From assembly GCF_900106765.1 (NCBI RefSeq), contig NZ_FNNG01000003.1, positions 62,001 to 126,000 on the forward strand: a stretch of 64,000 bases of DNA. Reading direction: 5' to 3'. This document shows, piece by piece, positions 43,110 through 52,716 of this stretch; positions within the stretch are counted from its first letter, which is position 1; each line of letters starts with the position of its first letter. The notes beneath the pieces were generated by a model, which did not search any database, was not told the origin of the DNA, and saw only the letters and a program-made list of their open reading frames with translations. This DNA is from Tepidimicrobium xylanilyticum. Lineage in GTDB: Bacteria > Bacillota > Clostridia > Tissierellales > Tepidimicrobiaceae. Position numbers and translations under genes: made by a program.

Positions 43110-43640
43110 TTTTGATCAATTTTTTAATTCCTCTTTTCTAAAATAAATCCATATTTTAATATAATAGGGATAAATCATAACTTAGAAAAGTTACTCTCAT
43201 CATTCATTTCTAATATTAAATTTATTTACCTTATTATAAACATAAATTTCCAATTATTTCAATACAATTCAAATTAGATTAATTTTTGGGAAATCTATGA
43301 TAATATTAAATGCTATGCTATTTATAAATTTTCAGTATAAAACCTAAATTTTTCCTTCAATTACCTACAGTTACCAATACTAGCCATTAGTACTTTATAA
43401 TAATTCATTTTTAGTAATTTCATAAATACTACAGGATATCAGATGAATGAGAACAAAAAAGTTAGATTTCAAACAATCTAATTTTTTGATTCTATTCGCA
43501 CCACTTTTCTTATAATTAGCACCAAAATTAATAAAAATTAGTATAAATATGCTATATTATTAATAAAGTATAAACATATTTTGTCTCTAATCCATTTATA
43601 TTTAACAAAATCAAAACTCTCCAACTTTTACCTTTAAGAG
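43110..43640. promoter_or_regulatory. Control region A, paralogous to control region B
   Basis: No gene is seen here. The stretch matches 51.4-51.8 kb along its length: ACAATTCAAATTAG (43265-43278) corresponds to the palindrome of region B. ATTCGCACCA (43494-43503) and ATTAGCACCA (43515-43524) are direct repeats 21 bp apart, as in B. TATGCTATATTATTAATAAA follows, as in B. A minus-strand promoter for the lipoprotein (TGAAAT, 17 bases, TATAAT) fits around 43232-43260. Confidence 0.6.
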
Positions 43641-43648
43641 TGAGATGA

Positions 43649-44004
43649 TTGTATTACAATCTATATGAATTTGGCAAAAACATACAGAGTATGAGAAGGC
43701 GTTTAAAATTAACCCAGCATAATATTTCAAATCAAACAGGATAAGCATTGAAACGTTGACAGAATCTATCCACGACAAACCCAACGAAACTATGGGTAAA
43801 TTAATTGAGACCTTAAAAATGGCTACACCAGAATTTTCACTTTCTAATTATAAATCCTTTCTCTATAATTCTATAGAATTAAGGATACTAATGAATATGA
43901 TACTTATAACGGAGAAGATGGAAACTATTGAGAAAAATTAGAAATTATGAAGTTCTGTATAAAAACAGCGGAACATAATGATAACATATATCCAGAAATA
44001 TGTT
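43649..44004 (+). pseudogene. Deleted copy of the XRE-TPR regulator
   Basis: Strongly similar in DNA to the intact regulator at 51.8-52.7 kb. It starts at the equivalent TTG. After the codons for NISNQTG a 1-base deletion gives a stop. A deletion of roughly 250 bp then joins the end of the helix-turn-helix region to the TPR region (ESIHDKPNETMGKLIETLK, then LSNYKSFLYNSIELRILMNM). A second small deletion is near 43772, and a stop interrupts MKFCIKTAEH. The copy ends abruptly at 44004, where unrelated sequence begins. It holds the same position relative to locus A that the intact gene holds to locus B. Confidence 0.85.
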
Positions 44005-44125
44005 AGTTCCTGAACCTATAATTACAAACTTAGACGCATATAATCACAAGCTACTTGAAAAATGCCTTAAGACTAAGAATGCCATTCCCCCATAAAACAT
44101 CAATAGAAAAGCTTTTTATTTGATA
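44005..44125 (+). pseudogene. Possible IS21-type transposase fragment
   Basis: The plus-strand frame PEPIITNLDAYNHKLLEKCL, then a short break and NINRKAFYLIK, resembles a segment found in the C-terminal half of some IS21 IstA transposases. It joins the truncated regulator copy exactly where similarity to the intact gene stops. It is a short, decayed piece with stop codons, so the assignment is weak. Confidence 0.3.
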
Positions 44126-44416: not shown

Positions 44417-45154
44417 TTAATTACCGTTACCTTCATACTTCTTCAATCCTCTATCAAAAAATTTTTTTGATATAATAGCTAAAACACACAAGATAATTCC
44501 TTCTACTAGAAATACATTAAATCCTATATTAACCTTATTCAAAAAAAAGTTTGAAGGATAATAACTCAGAAATCCTAATGGTATCACAAAAGTTAGAATT
44601 TTCTTTAATACTGTACCAAATATAGACATTGGATATTTAACAAACTGGGCTAGAAAAAAAATGCTATCTATTGGTGTAAAACTATATCTAGTATAGAATA
44701 AAATAGTTTCAGCAATAATTGCTATACCACCAAAAATTAAACTACCCAAAATCATAAATACAATAACATATCCGATAGTGGTAAAATTAATTGCAATATT
44801 CAGGTTTAAAAATGAGTACAGTATAATAATAAATCCTAATATTGTCTGAAATATAGATCTTTCGTCAAAGCCTGATATCATAATATGAAAAATTGGTGGA
44901 ATTGGTCTTATAAGCATAGTCTCAAATTCACCTGAAAATAAATAACCTTTAAGGCTCCTAAGGTTACCAAATAAAAACATGAAAAATCCATAATTAAGAG
45001 TATAAAACCCATATACTAATAAAACTTCATATAGGTTCCAACCACTTATTTCTGGTACCGCCTCAAATATTAGATAAAAGAAACTCAAATTTAAAGATTG
45101 GGTAAGCAATATACAGAATATTCCTAAATAAAAGTCAACTTTTGTAAACGGCAA
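44417..45154 (-). CDS. ABC-2-type permease, N-terminus cut off by IS21 element
   Basis: A 245-residue membrane protein with six hydrophobic segments, the second permease of the locus B exporter. It has the ABC-2 permease pattern of paired export permeases (YEVLLVYGFYTLNYGFFMFLFG, then FETMLIRPIPPIFHIMISGF). The first visible in-frame start is TTG at 45154. Removing the IS21 element restores the frame ATG-AGA-TTT-AAG-GAA-AAG-TAC, so the original protein began MRFKEKYLPF, eight residues longer at its start. By chance an AAGGA lies seven bases ahead of the TTG, so a nearly full-length protein might still be made, but from a transcript that must pass the IS. Confidence 0.8.
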   Translation of the reverse strand: MPFTKVDFYLGIFCILLTQSLNLSFFYLIFEAVPEISGWNLYEVLLVYGFYTLNYGFFMFLFGNLRSLKGYLFSGEFETMLIRPIPPIFHIMISGFDERSIFQTILGFIIILYSFLNLNIAINFTTIGYVIVFMILGSLIFGGIAIIAETILFYTRYSFTPIDSIFFLAQFVKYPMSIFGTVLKKILTFVIPLGFLSYYPSNFFLNKVNIGFNVFLVEGIILCVLAIISKKFFDRGLKKYEGNGN

Positions 45155-45205
45155 GTACTTTTCCTTAAATTTCGGAAAATAATTTTCCCGAACAATTTCC
45201 AGTTT

Positions 45206-45958
45206 CTAATCCTCTAAAAAGGATTTTCTATGTGTAAGCCTATAGCTTTTGCCAGTCATATTAAATAACTCACATTTATAGGTAAGCCTGTCTAATATAG
45301 CTGTAGTTAATGCTGGGTCTCCTAATAATTCGTTCCAATCTCCAAAGCCCTTATTTGATGTAATTATAATTGAAGTCTGTTCGTGTAAGGCTGATATTAA
45401 CTGGAAAAACATATTAGCTTCCTCGCGATTAATTGGTAGATATCCAATTTCATCAATAATTACAAGGTCTGAGGAATGTATTTTATTTATCTTTATCTTA
45501 CTCTTTCTCATTATATCCTGTGTTTTTAATGAATAGACCAAATTGTCCATTGAGATGAAGCTTACCTTGTATCCCATATCTATAGCTTTATAGCCTAATG
45601 CTATGGCTAAGTGAGTTTTCCCTACACCAGGAGGACCTAGGAAGATAAGATTGTATATCTTATCTATCCAGTCCATTTCTAGAAGCCTGTTTATATGTCT
45701 TTTGCTGATAGACTTTTGAAATTCAAAATCAAATTCTTCTATTGTCTTTATTACAGGAAATCCTGCATTTTTTAATCGAGTTTGTTTTTTCCTCTGCTCC
45801 TTAGCAATTATCTCTTCATTTAATATTTGGTAAAGAAATTCTTGATATGATAAATCTTCCTTTTCTCCATGTTCTATGAACTCGTCTATCTTTTTTTGCA
45901 GATTTAATAACTTTAGTTCTTTGGCATATTCTTTTATATAATCAATTTTACCTATCAT
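45206..45958 (-). CDS. istB: IS21 helper ATPase IstB
   Basis: A 250-residue AAA+ ATPase that selects target DNA and activates the IstA transposase. Walker A is [16 protein letters not shown], Walker B is [11 protein letters not shown], and the sensor region has [17 protein letters not shown]; the arginine finger region is [15 protein letters not shown]. It follows istA directly (stop and start almost overlapping), the usual IS21 arrangement. It is full length. Confidence 0.95.
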
Positions 45959-45959
45959 C

Positions 45960-47513
45960 TTATCCCTCCAATGCTTTTACATATTCTGATGTATCCCTAA
46001 TTTGGGTTTTAATATCATATCTTTGAGGGATAGAAGGGATGTTTTTATTAGCTGTTTCTAGTTTTTGGTTATCTAATTCCTTATATTTCTCACCTAAAAA
46101 TTCAATTGCATCTCTAAAACTTACAGCACTGAATATCTCTCTTTCTATGCAATATTTAAGAGATTCTTCTATGAGTTTTTTCTCTACATTTTTACAAGTG
46201 TTGCATATTAAACTGTATTGGTCCCTGATGTATCTTGGTTTTTCAATCCTAATTCTATCGAGAAAAATCTTGGCTTCATTGGTGTTGTTCAGTACATTTA
46301 AAGCTTTTTCATATAGTTTGTCTATCTTTAAAGTTTTATCCCTTTCAGGATGGCTAATCTGTATTAATTTCCCTTTCAGTGTGCATTCATTATGCTCTGC
46401 TAAAATTTTACCTGTATCCTTATCTATTATCTGAATAATACCATCTAAATTACGAACTCCAACTGTTTTTCCTGGTTCATAGGTTCCTTTTGGTACTTGA
46501 TATCTGTTTTGTTTGTAAGAAATTGTATTGTCTTTTCTTACTGTATAGGTTAAAATTGAATTAGATGGTACATTTCTAAATGTTTGTGATACTGGAAGAA
46601 GGTATTTCTTTTCGAGGAAGAATACTTCTTTCGGTATCTTTTTTGTTGTTCCATGAATATTAGCATTTCCTGTTCTATCTAACCACAATAGACAATCTTC
46701 ATTAAACTTGTCTATATCAACAAAAGTTCTATTCTTTGCAAAATTATACTTTAAATATTTGACAACTGCTTCTATTTTTCCTTTGCTTTCTGGGTCATAT
46801 CCTCTATACATTCTTACTCTAATTTTCATAAAGTCTTTAAAGTTTTGAAATTCTTCTGTAAAAATTATGTCTCCATAGTTTTCATCAACTGCTAATAGTC
46901 TGTCTTGGTCATATACTATTTCGTGGGTTTTACCTCCAAAGTATTCAAAGGCCTTAATATGAGCATCGATAAAATCTTTCGTTGTAAATGGCTTGTCCTG
47001 CCAATAGGCATATTTCATTCTAGAGTGAGACAGTACCATAGCAAAGGCATAAAGTTTAACTCTTTTTCCATCTGCATTGTTAAGCCATATTTGTCCAAAA
47101 TCAACTTGTGCCTGATAGCTCATTGGAAGTTCTTGCACTGCTTCATGTTGTCTTTTAGATACAACCTTTGGAATATCATATTTATCTCTTATATATCTTA
47201 CATAGTTTCTCACACTCCTATGTGTGCATTTAATATCTCCATATCTTTCCTTTAACCAATCCAAAATCTGAGCTGCACTCATGTCTGGAAAATCTCTTAA
47301 CCAACCTACTATCTCATCTTCATATTCATCTAGTATTTTCTTTCTAACCTTCACTTTTTCCATATTTTCAGCAAACTCCTTTACCTGCATATTCCAGTAT
47401 TTAGATACAGTCCCATAGTCTAAATCTAAATATCTTGATACTTGAGATTTCTTTAGCCCTAATTCTTTCATGTTTTTAATTTCATTAAACATATGCCAAC
47501 CCTTCAATCCCAT
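45960..47513 (-). CDS. istA: IS21 transposase IstA
   Basis: A 517-residue DDE transposase. The N-terminal helix-turn-helix is [20 protein letters not shown], the catalytic core begins [12 protein letters not shown] (first Asp), then [10 protein letters not shown] (second Asp) and [17 protein letters not shown] (Glu), with a C-terminal DNA-binding region. Translation starts at 47513 behind AGGAGG, or at 47492. A 7-bp hairpin (CCTGTAA at 47527-47533 against TTACAGG at 47540-47546) overlaps the ribosome-binding site and may damp expression from transcripts that enter from outside. Confidence 0.95.
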
Positions 47514-47713
47514 TTTCTATCTACCTCCTGTAAGATATTTTACAGGAAAGTAGATTTGTTTCATATACAACTGGAAAAATTTCAGGATTCTTATTTTCCG
47601 AAATCTCATGATTTTATTTTACCACTTACAACTTTATATTCTGAAAGCCTTTTTATATTAAATTTGATAAAAGTAATTATAATAGATATATAATACAGAA
47701 AAATTTTCAAATT

Positions 47714-48514
47714 TTACCCCCCATTTATAAAAACTTGTTTTCTTGCCAAATTAAACAAATACCTTCCTAATAATATAAACAAGACAATCCACCCAGCCTG
47801 GCGTATTAAATACATTAAAAAATAGTTAATACTCCAATAATTTTGATAAATATCTATTGGAGTAAAAATTATCCCTGAAAAAGGTAATATGTTAATAGAT
47901 ATGTATTTAAGATATTCAGGAAAGAAATCAAGAGGTATTAACTTGCCCGAAAAAAAAGATATTATAGTGAATTTAAAAGTGTTGATTCCCCAACTGTTTT
48001 CAGTCCAAAAACAAATCACACCTAAAACAAAATCGAATGTTATTACGGTCAAAGCAGACAAGAATATACTAATAATAAAGTAGACAAAATTAACTGGACC
48101 ATCTAGCGGCAATACAAATATTCGAAATAGCAAAACTGAAAAAAGTGATATCATTGACATAGGAATTATAATTCCTATATTCTTAAATAAAAATTGCATT
48201 TGATAGTCTAATGGCTTAAGCAAGGTATAGGCTATATTGCCTGATCTTATATCAATCGACATAAAATAGATATTGGGATATATGAAGATATTAGATATTC
48301 CTACGCTTAGAACTATATAATTAATCATTTGAGAAAAAGTCCGTCCATTTAATATATCTCTCCCCCCATATATTCCTTTCCATAAAAAATAGGATAAAAA
48401 AATTTGGGAGATTAGACTAAATATATTTTCTAAAATAATCCCTCTATCAAATATCTGAATTTTTATTCCAATTTTTAACCATTCAAAGTATTTTGATAAA
48501 CCTAGCCTACCCAC
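47714..48514 (-). CDS. ABC-2-type permease, first exporter permease of locus B
   Basis: A 266-residue membrane protein with about six hydrophobic segments. It begins GRLGLSKYFEWLKIGIKIQ and has GRTFSQMINYIVLSVGISNI and SGNIAYTLLKPLDYQMQFLF, the typical pattern of the ABC-2 permease pair in bacteriocin or small-peptide exporters. The start is GTG with GGAG nine bases ahead. It follows the ATPase by 12 bp and precedes the IS-cut partner. It probably forms a heterodimeric exporter with it and the ATPase. Confidence 0.88.
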   Translation of the reverse strand: MGRLGLSKYFEWLKIGIKIQIFDRGIILENIFSLISQIFLSYFLWKGIYGGRDILNGRTFSQMINYIVLSVGISNIFIYPNIYFMSIDIRSGNIAYTLLKPLDYQMQFLFKNIGIIIPMSMISLFSVLLFRIFVLPLDGPVNFVYFIISIFLSALTVITFDFVLGVICFWTENSWGINTFKFTIISFFSGKLIPLDFFPEYLKYISINILPFSGIIFTPIDIYQNYWSINYFLMYLIRQAGWIVLFILLGRYLFNLARKQVFINGG

Positions 48515-48526
48515 CTAATCCACTCC

Positions 48527-49522
48527 TCATTTTGATTCTTGTAGATAAATATTTTCTATTATATCCTCAAATTTAAAAGAAGATATACTATAATCTGTAA
48601 TTACACAAATCTCATTCATTTTATCTAAAACATGTCTTATATTATCTATTCCTCCATCTTCAATATGTAGAATTAAATTATTATTATGGATATCTTTAAT
48701 CTGCCCAAACCTTTCAACTATTTCTAACAGATTTTGTTTGTCAAGTTCTATAACATTTCTAAATGTTATAGATAATACTTTTTGTTTATTATAAGATGCC
48801 TTTAATTCTTGAATTTTGCCATCATACATAATTAGTCCTTTATCTATCAATATTACTCTATCACATAAATCTTCAATGTCATGCATATTGTGAGTAGTAA
48901 ATATTATAGTCTTTTGATATTGTTCATTCAATTCTTTGACAAATGATAACACTCTCTTTTTAGTTAATATATCCAATCCTATGGTAGGTTCATCTAGATA
49001 AATTACATCTGGCCAATGAATAAGACTTCCAGCAAACTCACATCTCATGCGTTGACCTAAACTTAGCTTCCTCACTGGAATTTTCATAAGTTCTCCTATA
49101 TCTAGCATATTGTCTAAAAATTGAATTCTTCTTTTATAATCTTCATCTGCTACATTATAGATTTTCTTTAATAAAATAAAGGAATCTTGAACTGGCAAGT
49201 CCCTCCATAACTGCCCCCGTTGCCCAAACACTACTCCAATATTCATGTTATTCTCCCTTCTATTTTTAAAAGGATTAATCCCATTTACCCTTATACTGCC
49301 TGTATCAGGATTTAATATCCCACATAACATCTTTATTGTCGTAGATTTCCCAGCACCATTTAAACCAATATAGCCAACCAATTCTCCCTTATTCACAAAG
49401 AAACTAATGCCTTTAACAGCTTCTTTGTAAATATATTCTCTACTGACGAGACTTTTAAAAAATCCGTCATCTCTTTTGACAGGAATTACAAAAGTTTTTG
49501 TGATATTATCTACTTCTATCAT
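48527..49522 (-). CDS. ABC exporter ATPase of locus B
   Basis: A 331-residue ATPase. Walker A is GYIGLNGAGKSTTIKML, the Q-loop region is VVFGQRGQLWRDLPVQDSF, the signature KLSLGQRMRCEFAGSL, Walker B VIYLDEPTIGLD, and H-loop TTHNMHDIEDL. The C-terminal about 90 residues are an extra domain as in DrrA/YbhF-type export ATPases. It starts with AAGGAGG ahead, 190 bp after the radical SAM gene. That gap holds a TATAAT and a copy of the ATTCGCACCA-like motif (49676-49684), so a second promoter is possible. Confidence 0.92.
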   Translation of the reverse strand: MIEVDNITKTFVIPVKRDDGFFKSLVSREYIYKEAVKGISFFVNKGELVGYIGLNGAGKSTTIKMLCGILNPDTGSIRVNGINPFKNRRENNMNIGVVFGQRGQLWRDLPVQDSFILLKKIYNVADEDYKRRIQFLDNMLDIGELMKIPVRKLSLGQRMRCEFAGSLIHWPDVIYLDEPTIGLDILTKKRVLSFVKELNEQYQKTIIFTTHNMHDIEDLCDRVILIDKGLIMYDGKIQELKASYNKQKVLSITFRNVIELDKQNLLEIVERFGQIKDIHNNNLILHIEDGGIDNIRHVLDKMNEICVITDYSISSFKFEDIIENIYLQESK

Positions 49523-49711
49523 GGGAGCCTCCTTACATTTCTATACACTTTATAAATATAAATAACAGATCGAAACCTTAATTTTGGTTAATAATTCAAA
49601 TGCAACATAAACAACCTCTCTTCAATTTTTTCATTAAAAACAAGTGTTTAATAAAGTCATTCTATTATAGAAAATTTCGCACCATTTCTCATGATTAACT
49701 TTCAAAATATG

Positions 49712-51031
49712 TTATTTAATCTCCCACTTTGGACAATAAGGGTCATTATCAAATACATTGTAAGTATATATGTCAGAAATAGCAGGGCAACCTCCAACAC
49801 ATAATCCATTTATGTACGATTCACAAGATATGCAACTATCCCCAGCCTCAAGATTTCTCATAAATACAAATTGCTCATTAGAATCCCATATTTCCTTAAA
49901 ATGTTTATCAAAAATGGACTCCGAAAAAATATTTCTTCTATCAAAAAATTCTTTTAAATGCACACATGGAAACAAATCACCATTTGATGATATAGTTACA
50001 ATATACGAACCAGCTGCACATCTCTTTAATCCTAATTTAGTACGAATCTCGTCATGTTCCAAAATAAATTCTCCATCTGGAGTAACAACCTTACCGAATG
50101 CATATTGAGATAATGAAGTTTTCTTTGCAAATTCCTGTATACTTTTCTTTACCTTAACAATTTTATCCTTCCAATGACTATCATCTAATTTAATCAGATT
50201 AATTTGCCCTTTACCTGCCCTTCCTGTTGGCATTACTAATGAAAAAGAAACATTGGTGATTTTGTTTTCTAACAGCATATCTAAATATTGCTCTATAGTA
50301 TCTATATTATAATTATTTATTACTGTATTGACACCAAAATTAAAATTATTATGCTGCAAATACCTGATCTTATCCATGACTCTTGAAAAATTGCCTTTTC
50401 CCCTAATCATATCATGTGCCCCTTCTATTCCATCTAATGAAATTGAAACTCTAAAACATTGATTGCTGTATTTAGATAATGCATTTACAAATTTATCATT
50501 TATAAGTAAACCATTGGTGGTTATCTGTATTGTAAAATTTTCTTCTATTATTAATTCAATTATTTCATATATTCTTGGATGACATAAAGGTTCTCCTCCA
50601 GTAATACTTATTTGGGGTACCCCTAATTCTTTTAATTGCATTATCACATATTCTATTTGTTCCATACTCATTTCACTACCTTGTCCAAAATCCCCAAAAC
50701 AATGTTCACATCTTAAATTACAAATATCAGTAATAGTTAAATATGCTTTTATTGGTGCAGATAAAGATTTTTCAGTTGGCTTATTTATTATAATATCAGC
50801 ATTAATTTTATTATCTTTAATTAGACCCATTTTGCTTAATTCTTTAATATATTCAACAACATTATTTCTCTCGATATTGTCATAAATCAATATTGTTTTT
50901 TGAATACCCATCTGAGCAATGTTAAAAATTATATCAAAACCAAACATATCTATAAAATAGAATTCAAAATTATCCCTATCATATAACAATCCACCAAAAT
51001 TTTCTTTTCTCAACAAAAACCTAGATCTCAT
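49712..51031 (-). CDS. Radical SAM/SPASM peptide maturase of locus B
   Basis: A 439-residue intact enzyme. Residues 1-75 (FGGLLYDRDNFEFYFIDMFG ... VVEYIKELSKMGLI) look like a PqqD-like peptide-recognition domain. The radical SAM cluster motif is CNLRCEHC (104-111), with GGEP at 145-148. The SPASM domain has Cys 338, 356, 400, 403, 411, 415 and 433 (for example CISCESYINGLCVGGCPA), enough for two auxiliary Fe-S clusters. This matches PqqE/MftC-type enzymes that cross-link or edit ribosomal peptides. Its start has AAAGGGG ahead, 60 bp after the 22-aa peptide. The substrate is inferred from position. Confidence 0.9.
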   Translation of the reverse strand: MRSRFLLRKENFGGLLYDRDNFEFYFIDMFGFDIIFNIAQMGIQKTILIYDNIERNNVVEYIKELSKMGLIKDNKINADIIINKPTEKSLSAPIKAYLTITDICNLRCEHCFGDFGQGSEMSMEQIEYVIMQLKELGVPQISITGGEPLCHPRIYEIIELIIEENFTIQITTNGLLINDKFVNALSKYSNQCFRVSISLDGIEGAHDMIRGKGNFSRVMDKIRYLQHNNFNFGVNTVINNYNIDTIEQYLDMLLENKITNVSFSLVMPTGRAGKGQINLIKLDDSHWKDKIVKVKKSIQEFAKKTSLSQYAFGKVVTPDGEFILEHDEIRTKLGLKRCAAGSYIVTISSNGDLFPCVHLKEFFDRRNIFSESIFDKHFKEIWDSNEQFVFMRNLEAGDSCISCESYINGLCVGGCPAISDIYTYNVFDNDPYCPKWEIK

Positions 51032-51060
51032 AATAAACCCCTTTCTATGTTTTAGAATAA

Positions 51061-51086
51061 ATCACAGGAGATTTAACTCCTGTGAT
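51061..51086. terminator. Perfect stem-loop between peptide and maturase genes
   Basis: ATCACAGGAG and CTCCTGTGAT form a perfect 10-bp stem around six bases, 4 bp after the 22-aa peptide stop. On the minus strand it is followed by TTATTCT, a weak U-tract, so partial termination or mRNA protection is likely. This is the usual device for making more precursor than enzyme. Confidence 0.7.
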
Positions 51087-51090
51087 CTTT

Positions 51091-51159
51091 TTAATCTACT
51101 CTTGGATGGGCATTTAAGCTAACCTTTTTTATTATGGGTTTTCTGATTCTTTTCATCAT
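51091..51159 (-). CDS. 22-aa basic peptide, candidate precursor of locus B
   Basis: A tiny gene: ATG-ATG at 51159 with AGGAG five bases ahead of the first ATG, TAA at 51091. The peptide begins MMKRIRKPIIKKVS and ends LNAHPRVD, with seven K/R residues in the first 12 or 20. It has no Cys, Trp, Tyr or Phe and no secretion signal. It is first in the operon, ahead of a stem-loop and a radical SAM/SPASM maturase and ABC exporter, behind a well-formed promoter with a 240-base leader. Lack of Cys and of the aromatic residues excludes sactionine, streptide, PQQ and mycofactocin type chemistry; His18 with following residues, or epimerisation of Ile/Val, remain possible. I recognise no family. Confidence 0.65.
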   Translation of the reverse strand: MMKRIRKPIIKKVSLNAHPRVD

Positions 51160-51404
51160 CTCATCTCCTAAAGTTAACGGGTATCATCAAATATAATGAC
51201 ACCTAAATTTAAATCCACTCACTCATCAAGTTTTAAAGATAAAAGCCTCATGACCTTGACAGCCTTCAATTCTAACAAATAACCCTAGTCAGTGATAAGA
51301 ATATTATTTTCATACATCAAATTTAGTAAATAGCTATGATGTTTAATGTTACTATAAGCTATTTTGTATTATCTCTCTTCTCTTACATTTATTTACTTAA
51401 CGTT

Positions 51405-51477
51405 ATTATATTTATTAATAAAGTATAAATCAATCCAATTCAAATTGGGTTGACTTTTTTGAAATCTATGGTATTAT
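51405..51477. promoter_or_regulatory. Divergent promoters flanking a palindrome, control region B
   Basis: On the minus strand TTGATT (51428-51433), 17 bases, TATAAT (51405-51410) points to the 22-aa peptide. On the plus strand TTGACT (51450-51455), 16 bases, TATTAT (51472-51477) points to the regulator. Between the two -35 boxes lies the perfect palindrome CCAATT-CA-AATTGG (51435-51448). A factor bound there would contact both promoters. Confidence 0.6.
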
Positions 51478-51649
51478 TTAGAAATTATACTATTTATGTT
51501 TTCTTACTCTCATATCTTTATTTTGCCTCTTCAAAGTTCCCAATTAATAAAATTGGTTATCACCATTCTATCGTTATATAAAATCCATTTTCTAGATTTT
51601 ATAATTGCTATTAGTTGTTAATTTATGACAAAATTTAAAACAAAATACT

Positions 51650-51714
51650 ATTCGTACCGTTTTCCCTACCATTCGTACCGAAATTAACAAATTTTAGCAT
51701 GTATATGCTATACT
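51650..51714 (+). promoter_or_regulatory. Direct repeats and palindromic box ahead of the regulator
   Basis: ATTCGTACCG occurs at 51650-51659 and again at 51671-51680, exactly two helical turns apart. TAGCAT-GTAT-ATGCTA (51695-51710) is a palindrome with 6-bp arms and the 16-bp layout of PlcR-type boxes, overlapping a possible second promoter (TTAACA 51684-51689, TATACT 51709-51714, 19-base spacer). The direct repeats and most of the palindrome recur in control region A. These are candidate binding sites of the XRE-TPR regulator. Confidence 0.55.
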
Positions 51715-51804
51715 ATTAATAAGATATAAGCATATTTAATTAGTAATCCATCCATTTTTAATAAAAACAAAACTCTCCAACCTTTGAGTTTAGGGGTGAG
51801 ATAT

Positions 51805-52716
51805 TTGTATTATAATCTATATGAATTTGGTAAAAACGTACAAAGTATGAGAAAGCGTCTAAAGTTAACCCAACGTGATGTTTCAAATTTAACAGGAGTA
51901 AGCGTTGAAACATTGAGGAAGATTGAAAATGGTAAGGTAATTCCAAAGCATGAAACCTTGGATCTACTATCTCTTATATTAAAAGAAGATTTGAACCAAC
52001 TTCTACTCAATTATAGAATTAATAATTATAATAAATTTGAACAAGCCATCAATAACATCGACTATAAACTTTATATAAATGATTATGAAACCCTTCAAAT
52101 TGAATTAGATAAGTTAGAAACCCTTTTGAATAATAGCATAAGTAAATATTTTTCCAATTTACTAAAACAATTTATACTGCTGACAGAATCCATCATTTTA
52201 AATAAAAATCACGACAAACCCAATGAAGCTATGAGTAAATTAATTGAGGCCTTAAAAATGACTACACCAAAATTTTTACCTTCTAATTATAAATCCTTTG
52301 TCTATAATTCTATAGAATTAAGGATATTAATGAATATGGCGCTTATAATGGAAAAGATGGAAACAATTGAAAAAAGTTTAGAAATTATGAAGTTCTGTAT
52401 GAAAACAGCGGAACATAATGATAACATATATCCAGAAATATGTTATAATTTAGCCCATACATATCACAAACTGAAAATCCATGAAGAGGCTTTAAAATAC
52501 TCAAATTTAGGTATAGAATACTATGTTAAACATAAAAATTATAATGGAATAAGCCTTTTATACTTTAGAAAAGGGATTGCTGAGTATTTTCTTCATCATA
52601 ACTCTTTTATGGATTCTTTAAATAAATCCATAGTTTTATGTGAAATTTTTAGGCAATTTAAATTGAAGGATATGATCGTAGGCAATTGTAGGAAGTTTTA
52701 TGGTATAGAATTGTAA
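51805..52716 (+). CDS. XRE-family regulator with TPR repeats (RRNPP-like)
   Basis: A 303-residue transcription regulator. The N-terminal helix-turn-helix is MRKRLKLTQRDVSNLTGVSV then ETLRKIENGKVIPKHETLDL. The rest (residues about 70-300) is helical with TPR-like pairs such as ICYNLAHTYHKLKIHEEALKY. This is the PlcR/NprR/ComR type of build in which the TPR groove binds a signalling peptide. The start is taken as TTG at 51805, six bases after AGGGGTG; the same codon is kept in the pseudogene copy, while the longer frame from 51784 would cover the ribosome-binding site. It is divergent from the 22-aa peptide operon, which it probably controls. Confidence 0.85.
   Translation: MYYNLYEFGKNVQSMRKRLKLTQRDVSNLTGVSVETLRKIENGKVIPKHETLDLLSLILKEDLNQLLLNYRINNYNKFEQAINNIDYKLYINDYETLQIELDKLETLLNNSISKYFSNLLKQFILLTESIILNKNHDKPNEAMSKLIEALKMTTPKFLPSNYKSFVYNSIELRILMNMALIMEKMETIEKSLEIMKFCMKTAEHNDNIYPEICYNLAHTYHKLKIHEEALKYSNLGIEYYVKHKNYNGISLLYFRKGIAEYFLHHNSFMDSLNKSIVLCEIFRQFKLKDMIVGNCRKFYGIEL

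Follow-up and report, generated by a model that had tools for sequence, protein, structure and literature searches.

The window analyzed here is a stretch of 64,000 nucleotides from Tepidimicrobium xylanilyticum (assembly GCF_900106765.1, contig NZ_FNNG01000003.1, positions 62,001 to 126,000). It carries an operon of the kind that makes ribosomally synthesized and post-translationally modified peptides (RiPPs) with a radical S-adenosylmethionine (SAM) enzyme. Sequence comparisons indicate that this radical SAM RiPP-type operon is real, under selection and probably mobile. Our best explanation, to which we give an even chance, is that a 22-codon open reading frame (ORF) before the enzyme gene most likely encodes the precursor peptide, that a divergent PlcR-type regulator governs the operon under the influence of an Agr-type system, and that export of the product has been damaged. 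The families of the enzyme and of the regulator, the shared Agr-type promoter, the split permease and the purifying selection are all evident from sequence.

An earlier sequence-only reading of this locus had proposed a radical SAM RiPP layout under an RRNPP-type regulator. The types of enzyme and regulator stand, but the pairing of this regulator with this operon is not conserved. If our explanation is correct, the operon would represent a radical SAM RiPP family outside the streptococci, with a precursor that lacks every residue of the best-known cross-links, and the locus would form what looks like a two-layer cell-density switch, Agr acting on a PlcR-type regulator that in turn governs a peptide operon.

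The radical SAM/SPASM maturase

The maturase gene (49712..51031, minus strand) encodes 439 amino acids, the N-terminal part of which may form a domain resembling the RiPP recognition element (RRE). The enzyme had been described as intact, and Pfam domains and invariant Cys sets bear this out. Pfam recognizes Radical_SAM (E = 9.4e-29) and SPASM (E = 3.8e-7), both over the Pfam cut-offs. Cys104, Cys108 and Cys111 (CX3CX2C) and Cys338, Cys356, Cys400, Cys403, Cys411, Cys415 and Cys433 (seven-Cys SPASM) are invariant in all three sequences compared, two of which are nearly identical. The seven-Cys SPASM motif is recognized by a spacing rule.

A profile (A1) built from the window sequence and two relatives matches SkfB (2.2e-18), SuiB (2.9e-17) and entry 5wgg (2.8e-12), which we take to be CteB, in the PDB. 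SkfB and SuiB are the best solved relatives, and by profile they share with the window enzyme the fold family and apparently the N-terminal domain; the alignment to SuiB covers residues 5-416, N-terminal domain included. All 25 listed of the 82 NCBIfam matches fall under the curated cut-off, the closest scores among those listed being WgkB with 132.7 of 650 bits and MftC with 129.3 of 265. Therefore, none of those families claims the maturase, and by this measure it is not assigned to a named NCBIfam maturase family.

An AlphaFold model of the maturase, computed from a shallow alignment, has low confidence (pLDDT 45.2), which counts against the preferred explanation. Within it, residues 12-67 form two strands and three helices (block pLDDT 52-81). 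The best-rated part is residues 41-70, and the fold there is as expected of an RRE-like domain. Foldseek with this model returned SuiB and SkfB at the top, a result that we count only jointly with the profile matches. From its domains, Cys sets and profile matches, the enzyme is classed as a RiPP-type radical SAM/SPASM maturase.

Distribution, selection and mobility

At E = 1e-45 or better, the maturase is matched in three of the 249 genomes searched in the order, one being the genome of the window; at 1e-60 it is matched in one of 391 genomes of a class sample, again the genome of the window. The maturase profile at 1e-34 reaches four of the 249. The fourth genome (G206) has a distant, full-length relative (27% identity; locus L022) whose neighbors read as glycan-synthesis genes, and no peptide matching the 22-mer was found in it. 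A pattern-based scan of an 84,980-species collection gave Anaerosalibacter bizertensis NZ_VULR01000002.1 (G031) and the contig JAHXQP010000027.1 of a metagenome-assembled genome (G057). The same scan, which used an alignment, also gave two distant partial matches. A single-sequence scan of genome contigs and two scans of viral contigs yielded no further relatives.

G031 and G057 each carry the maturase, the ATPase and both permeases. The window maturase is 70% identical to these two relatives, which are nearly identical to each other, and its residues 1-85 are 68% identical to them (58/85). Against the Anaerosalibacter copy, the ratio of nonsynonymous to synonymous substitution rates is ~0.28 for the maturase, 0.14 for the ATPase, 0.18 for permease 1 and 0.17 for the C-terminal part of permease 2. 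Values of 0.14 to 0.28 across the operon genes point to purifying selection on the operon.

The two relatives also suggest that the operon moves. In the Anaerosalibacter locus, a block nearly identical to the G057 locus (L012) starts at about L011:8,300-8,600, reaches 15,800 and ends right after permease 2. Most of this block is 98-100% identical, one 499-nt intron stretch is 94% identical, and the flanks differ by ~5%. Group II intron remnants open the block, and no regulator gene lies within it. In the four operon genes, G031 and G057 differ by no synonymous change in ~763 synonymous sites and by 8 nonsynonymous changes. Six comparable flanking genes are 93.6-96.0% identical and a seventh has no match; one flanking gene (L011:836-1747) alone holds 38 synonymous changes. 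A near-identical block inside flanks that diverge by ~5% argues for recent transfer, and on these comparisons the operon looks horizontally mobile. Because the operon is rare in its order and apparently mobile, it offers a small, testable case of how substrate and regulator change on transfer.

The candidate precursor

The candidate precursor ORF (MMKRIRKPIIKKVSLNAHPRVD; 51091..51159, minus strand) has 22 codons and the Shine-Dalgarno (SD) sequence AGGAG, and the peptide MMKRIRKPIIKKVSLNAHPRVD contains no Cys, Trp, Tyr or Phe; the ORF is thus present as first described. It is the sole ORF of at least 8 amino acids with a 5/6 SD match on the minus strand between 51900 and 50980 (921 nt), and it ends 59 nt before the maturase start. 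Translation of this ORF, its role as substrate and a split into leader and core are what we infer.

The hairpin noted after the ORF is also confirmed. The stem-loop between ORF and maturase (51061..51086) has 10 pairs in the scan and 12 in the fold. The stretch 51030-51100 folds with -21.3 kcal/mol (z -4.9), and 0 of 200 shuffles are as good; the hairpin exceeds chance. Its 10-pair stem starts 4 nt past the stop codon of the ORF. This arrangement could mean that the ORF has a regulatory role upstream of the maturase, which it would control by attenuation through coupling of its translation to the hairpin, and that it yields no product. However, the 22-mer has no run of a single amino acid with which to sense charged tRNA, the hairpin is terminator-like on the plus strand only, and no Rfam match was found in the window at the gathering threshold. 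We consider attenuation unlikely.

The claim that the 22-mer is the substrate is not established by our results, and the comparison that the sequence-only reading had named as a possible refutation partly speaks against it. Neither the G031 nor the G057 genome holds a 22-mer-like peptide, despite 70% enzyme identity, although the query is short. In a blastn comparison of the window with L011, the maturase ATG (window 51031, L011 11748; E = 1.5e-29) is the exact point at which similarity sets in. No collinear similarity upstream of it was seen, the other blastn matches being weak (E = 3.6e-4 or worse), and the G057 upstream stretch is nearly identical to that of G031. In front of their maturase, the relatives carry a GTG ORF of 28 codons with an SD match under 4/6 and the micro-ORFs MDSIYTIIIS (SD 4/6) and MVSICTIIISQDK, a 13-codon ORF whose SD match (5/6) is as good as that of the 22-mer. 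The ORF of the window is thus not conserved in the two close relatives. In dinucleotide shuffles of a 752-nt region, an ATG ORF of 20-60 amino acids with an equally good SD sequence appears in 293 of 5,000, so that the ORF alone is a ~6% event. (With SD ignored, 1,711 of 2,000 shuffles contain an ATG ORF of this size; with any start and an SD match of 4/6, 1,186 of 2,000 contain such an ORF.) The codon score of the ORF is low, at 6.3 bits over 21 codons. All these observations speak against the 22-mer as substrate.

They leave room for a second explanation, which we hold to be less likely than not and rate below the preferred one: the RiPP operon is real, the 22-mer ORF arose by chance in an AT-rich leader, and the true precursor lies elsewhere or has been lost. 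The operon genes are conserved while their upstream regions are unrelated, the ORFs before the Anaerosalibacter enzyme are micro-ORFs and a weak-SD GTG 28-mer, and the chance rate just given is appreciable. On the other side, no ORF but the 22-mer has a 5/6 SD match in the leader of this operon, and it stands close before the enzyme and is followed by the hairpin. Moreover, both G031 and G057 have group II intron debris ahead of the maturase, and the precursor may have been lost or replaced there. Because of this debris, the loci of the relatives are not a clean test of the substrate claim, and because their upstream regions were remodeled by introns, we keep the 22-mer as the leading candidate at this locus, with the chances for and against its being the substrate about balanced.

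Several similarities to the 22-mer were examined and set aside. A match at E = 0.058 to the N-terminus of what reads as a glycyl radical enzyme was dismissed as chance. The Anaerosalibacter 28-mer is no better a homologue than shuffles (1,975 of 5,000 reach its score), and 221 of 2,000 shuffled peptides score at least as well as the best 22-mer-like stretch anywhere upstream in Anaerosalibacter. Among 10 genomes searched with this short query, only the genome of the window has a matching peptide, the nine others giving none, and no match was found in plasmids, NCBIfam or Pfam. As a separate observation, a 56-nt direct repeat (L009:1211-1266 and 1419-1474; 77% identical) holds the micro-ORFs just before the Anaerosalibacter maturase.

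Possible modifications of the 22-mer

The absence of Cys, Trp, Tyr and Phe from the 22-mer rules out sactionine, Lys-Trp, Arg-Tyr and Cys-thioether links. The sequence-only reading had held that the common linkages cannot form. This is correct for these four but overstated as a general claim, because some radical SAM reactions described in the literature require no Cys and no aromatic residue. Mycofactocin-like chemistry removes the C-terminal carboxyl group. By analogy, the terminal Asp of the 22-mer might also undergo C-terminal decarboxylation, MftC being the second-best NCBIfam match. According to the available portions of two papers, outcomes that use neither Cys nor aromatic residues include the Thr-Gln ether, the bicyclostreptin links, cyclopropylglycine formed from Val, and epimerization (PMC13361665, PMC9062424). 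For comparison with the Thr-Gln ether, the 22-mer contains Ser and lacks Thr and Gln.

The PlcR/RRNPP-like regulator

The XRE-TPR regulator (303 amino acids; 51805..52716, plus strand) is present as predicted, divergent to the operon, and is PlcR/RRNPP-like by profile. Its start is probably not at 51784, as assumed earlier; we prefer the TTG at 51805, which lies 4 nt after GGGGTGAG. Regulator searches used residues from 51808. With the window regulator alone, Pfam recognizes HTH only. A profile of 13 regulator homologues matches PlcR over positions 5-295 (E = 6.5e-10), and RNPP_C is matched in six of the 13, the window protein not being among these six. On its HTH and TPR architecture, the protein is classed as PlcR/RRNPP-like. 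A single-sequence structure model (pLDDT 47.7) was left unused in favor of sequence profiles.

Regulator homologues are found in 44 of the 249 genomes of the order, the genome of the window included. Another genome of the same genus (G001) has the regulator and no maturase match, and no regulator homologue is present in the G031 or G057 genomes at E = 1e-12. By these searches, the pairing of regulator and operon is unconserved.

Twelve homologue regions (L055-L066), mostly drawn from the best matches, were read for neighboring genes. A Pfam-supported RiPP enzyme is among the divergent genes in four of them (L057, L059, L065 and L066). Divergent to the regulator homologue, L057 has two radical SAM enzymes and a Cys-containing candidate precursor, and L066 has LanC-like and nitroreductase-family genes. 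L065 has a radical SAM gene, an ATPase and a PF06182 permease, with transposon-like sequence in between. L058 has a precursor-like 48-amino-acid ORF at the contig edge, and L055 has a radical SAM gene nearby in a rearranged region. In L056, from the same genus, the control region is cut by an IS-like sequence and the contig ends. No RiPP enzyme was recognized from ORF reading in L060-L064, for which no family search was made. L059 is also of interest in its own right, since it encodes a 53-amino-acid, Cys- and Gly-rich candidate precursor (L059:3581-3742), followed by a radical SAM enzyme and an ABC transporter, all divergent to the regulator homologue.

A search for a propeptide with a secretion signal (18-75 amino acids, hydrophobic, SD match at least 5/6) found none within 900 nt on the divergent side or 500 nt downstream of the regulator. 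None was found with an SD match of 4/6 and an ATG or GTG start within 700 nt on the divergent side or 400 nt downstream. Like the missing regulator in the genomes of the two relatives, these results weigh against the preferred explanation. A hydrophobic TTG-initiated 20-mer (51770-51708) was considered as a pheromone and rejected, its SD match being 4/6 and the peptide, by reading, unconserved in the same-genus copy.

In three of 13 homologue loci (L034, L035 and L036; regulators 44-48% identical), divergent propeptides have hydrophobic N-termini and share a C-terminal W-x-[AS]-Y. These peptides are a possible new family of RRNPP signals. Some other homologue loci have short hydrophobic ORFs that lack W-x-[AS]-Y.

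Since no other propeptide was found near the regulator of the window, a mature form of the 22-mer might serve as its pheromone, the enzyme making a modified RRNPP signal. A C-terminal heptapeptide of the 22-mer would have the length of PapR-type signals, and the three homologues just described carry a secreted-type propeptide on the same divergent side. However, the 22-mer has no hydrophobic signal, the relatives of the operon have no regulator homologue in their genomes, and the same-genus genome retains the regulator without a maturase match. We therefore hold this possibility to be very improbable. An equally slight chance attaches to its more specific form, in which the 22-mer would be modified at His-Pro-Arg-Val-Asp, or by epimerization or Val/Ile C-H chemistry, and a product of heptapeptide size would be the signal of the Agr-gated PlcR-type regulator. 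If such a signal existed, the quorum circuit would have two layers and would work with a pheromone modified by a radical SAM enzyme.

The control region and its probable Agr/LytTR-type operator

In the preferred explanation, operon and regulator share a control region, and the palindrome-centered arrangement seen earlier was recovered. A 24-nt palindrome (TCAATCCAATTCAAATTGGGTTGA; 51430..51453), the putative operator of the XRE-TPR regulator, lies between two divergent promoter-like sites and overlaps the -35 boxes of both. The promoter scan gives a putative operon promoter, TTGATT-17-TATAAT (51405..51433, minus strand), and a putative distal regulator promoter, TTGACT-16-TATTAT (51450..51477, plus strand). 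The region holds 13 promoter-like sites, compared with 6.9 in shuffles (standard deviation 2.9). The 22-nt core of the palindrome is unique within the genome when up to three mismatches are allowed. The scan also rates the palindrome (plus strand) and a hairpin at 51180-51203 (minus strand) as terminator-like, which means that the palindrome could instead be a terminator.

Nearer to the regulator lies a direct repeat, ATTCGTACCG-N11-ATTCGTACCG (51650..51680, plus strand), a putative Agr/LytTR-type operator that is 124 nt before the TTG at 51805. It is followed by an extended -10 element (TATGCTATACT; 51704..51714, plus strand) at the offset seen in agrB promoters. The genome of the window contains seven such operator sites at up to three mismatches, compared with zero and one for a reversed control on the two strands. 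One precedes AgrB (PF04647, 7.1e-36) and another precedes a LytTR response regulator (LytTR, 2.8e-20); the remaining sites precede small or secreted-type proteins with no convincing Pfam match. By reading, an AgrD-like ORF (MKNMKIKVLENVAKLSKKAVSTAEGKQSMFIFFEPKKPEKK) follows agrB by ~0.6 kb. Beyond the regulator promoter, the ATTCGTACC direct repeat occurs at six additional loci of this genome (L069, L070, L071, L072, L073 and L074). The set of ATTCGTACC repeats is probably an Agr regulon.

Across the family, operator sites occur in 11 of 20 genomes, 24 sites in total, 19 of them with at most two mismatches. In 18 of the 24 aligned sites, those of the window and of the same-genus regulator (L091) included, the extended -10 lies 23 nt past the measuring point; the other six deviate from the pattern used. 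Of 17 relative loci, seven have agrB, in one case partial, starting ~70 bp past the operator site, a count that misses L090, which lies outside the pattern used. The operator before the regulator has an exact match in the same-genus genome. As a caution, the reversed control gives 13 matches in eight of the 20 family genomes, one to three each, the mismatch split being known for the operator only. With 24 operator matches against 13 for the control, single sites with three mismatches are weak.

By these comparisons, the operator before the regulator is shared with agrB and LytTR genes of this genome and of the family, and the presence of an Agr/LytTR-type repeat in the promoter of such a regulator is new here. 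In Staphylococcus aureus, the LytTR regulator AgrA binds to a pair of direct repeats that lie upstream of the agr promoters, according to the accessible part of one report (PMC4227749). Because the repeat is common to agrB and LytTR promoters, an Agr-type system probably drives the regulator. Activation by Agr and binding of a LytTR protein to the operator would follow from this promoter sharing.

At 43199..44010 (plus strand), the control region and regulator are present a second time in decayed form, with 70% and 80% DNA identity in two pieces and nine stops in the best-matched stretch. The position of the operon between an intact and a decayed regulator copy suggests an old duplication of control region and regulator.

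The exporter and its IS21-type insertion

An ABC exporter had been proposed downstream of the maturase. Its ATPase (331 amino acids; 48527..49522, minus strand; Pfam, NCBIfam and substitution ratio) and permease 1 (PF06182; 47714..48514, minus strand; Pfam and substitution ratio) are intact, but permease 2 is split by a 2,488-bp IS21-type element. The sequence-only reading ended at 47714 and therefore missed the split. Comparison with an intact relative copy places the N-terminal part of permease 2 at 47631..47710 (minus strand); the C-terminal part (PF06182; 44417..45142, minus strand) is recognized by Pfam and its substitution ratio. The element (45143..47630, minus strand) has TGTAA... inverted ends, TGTAAGTGGTAAA and TGTAAACGGCAAG, flanked on each side by AAAGT as a 5-bp target duplication. 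It carries istA (45960-47513) and istB (45206-45958), with Pfam matches to an rve domain and to IstB (1.5e-79). The istA/istB pair, the inverted ends and the short target duplication identify it, at the sequence level, as a member of the IS21 family. The reconstructed empty site, ...RLSEYKVDFYLGIF..., agrees with the intact permease 2 of the Anaerosalibacter locus L011. The operon thus has no complete exporter of ATPase and two permeases, and because permease 2 is split, export is probably lost or incomplete in this genome.

Proposed mechanism

The preferred explanation can be put as a sequence of steps, whose chemistry and binding events are conjectural throughout. An Agr-type system would switch the regulator on through the ATTCGTACC direct repeat, and the divergent PlcR-type regulator would set transcription by acting at the palindrome that separates the two promoters. 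Because a hairpin follows the ORF, the peptide mRNA may accumulate above the enzyme mRNA. The RRE-like N-terminus of the SPASM enzyme would hold the precursor by its basic N-terminal part (KRIRKP), and the enzyme would alter it near the C-terminal NAHPRVD part. The product would have been exported by the ATPase and the two PF06182 permeases.

Comparison with known systems

By analogy, the operon might work like the streptococcal radical SAM RiPP systems under Rgg/SHP control (streptide, tryglysin, threoglucin and bicyclostreptin). As described in the available text of a review, these combine a short precursor, a SPASM enzyme, an exporter and an RRNPP-type regulator, and some of their subfamilies need neither Cys nor an aromatic residue, as would hold for the 22-mer (PMC13361665). 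Compared by eye with 16 subfamily motifs given in that text, the 22-mer matches none (PMC13361665). The window also differs in that its regulator is PlcR-like, not Rgg, no SHP-like peptide was found, and an Agr-type promoter stands above the regulator.

In PlcR-PapR and other RRNPP systems, an XRE-TPR regulator likewise adjoins a biosynthetic cluster; the accessible part of one survey counts 196 biosynthetic gene clusters that adjoin RRNPP systems, one of them in Tissierellaceae (PMC10075063). In contrast to PlcR-PapR, no adjacent PapR-like propeptide was found here, and the promoter of the regulator is of the Agr/LytTR type. With Agr systems (AgrBD/LytTR), the locus shares the operator seen at agrB and LytTR promoters, whereas here the target is another quorum-type regulator. 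A further parallel is Clostridium acetobutylicum, also a clostridium, in which Agr controls a RiPP-type protein that resembles a lanthipeptide synthetase (PMC10301443). From the available portion of that report, the enzyme class differs and apparently no PlcR-type regulator stands in between (PMC10301443). Among the literature matches listed, a set mostly without subscription papers, neither this operon nor an Agr-to-PlcR-type cascade over a RiPP operon is named.

The same genome has a separate RiPP-like locus outside the window (L013:10854-17462, contig C3), which by reading comprises three radical SAM-like enzymes and an ABC transporter.

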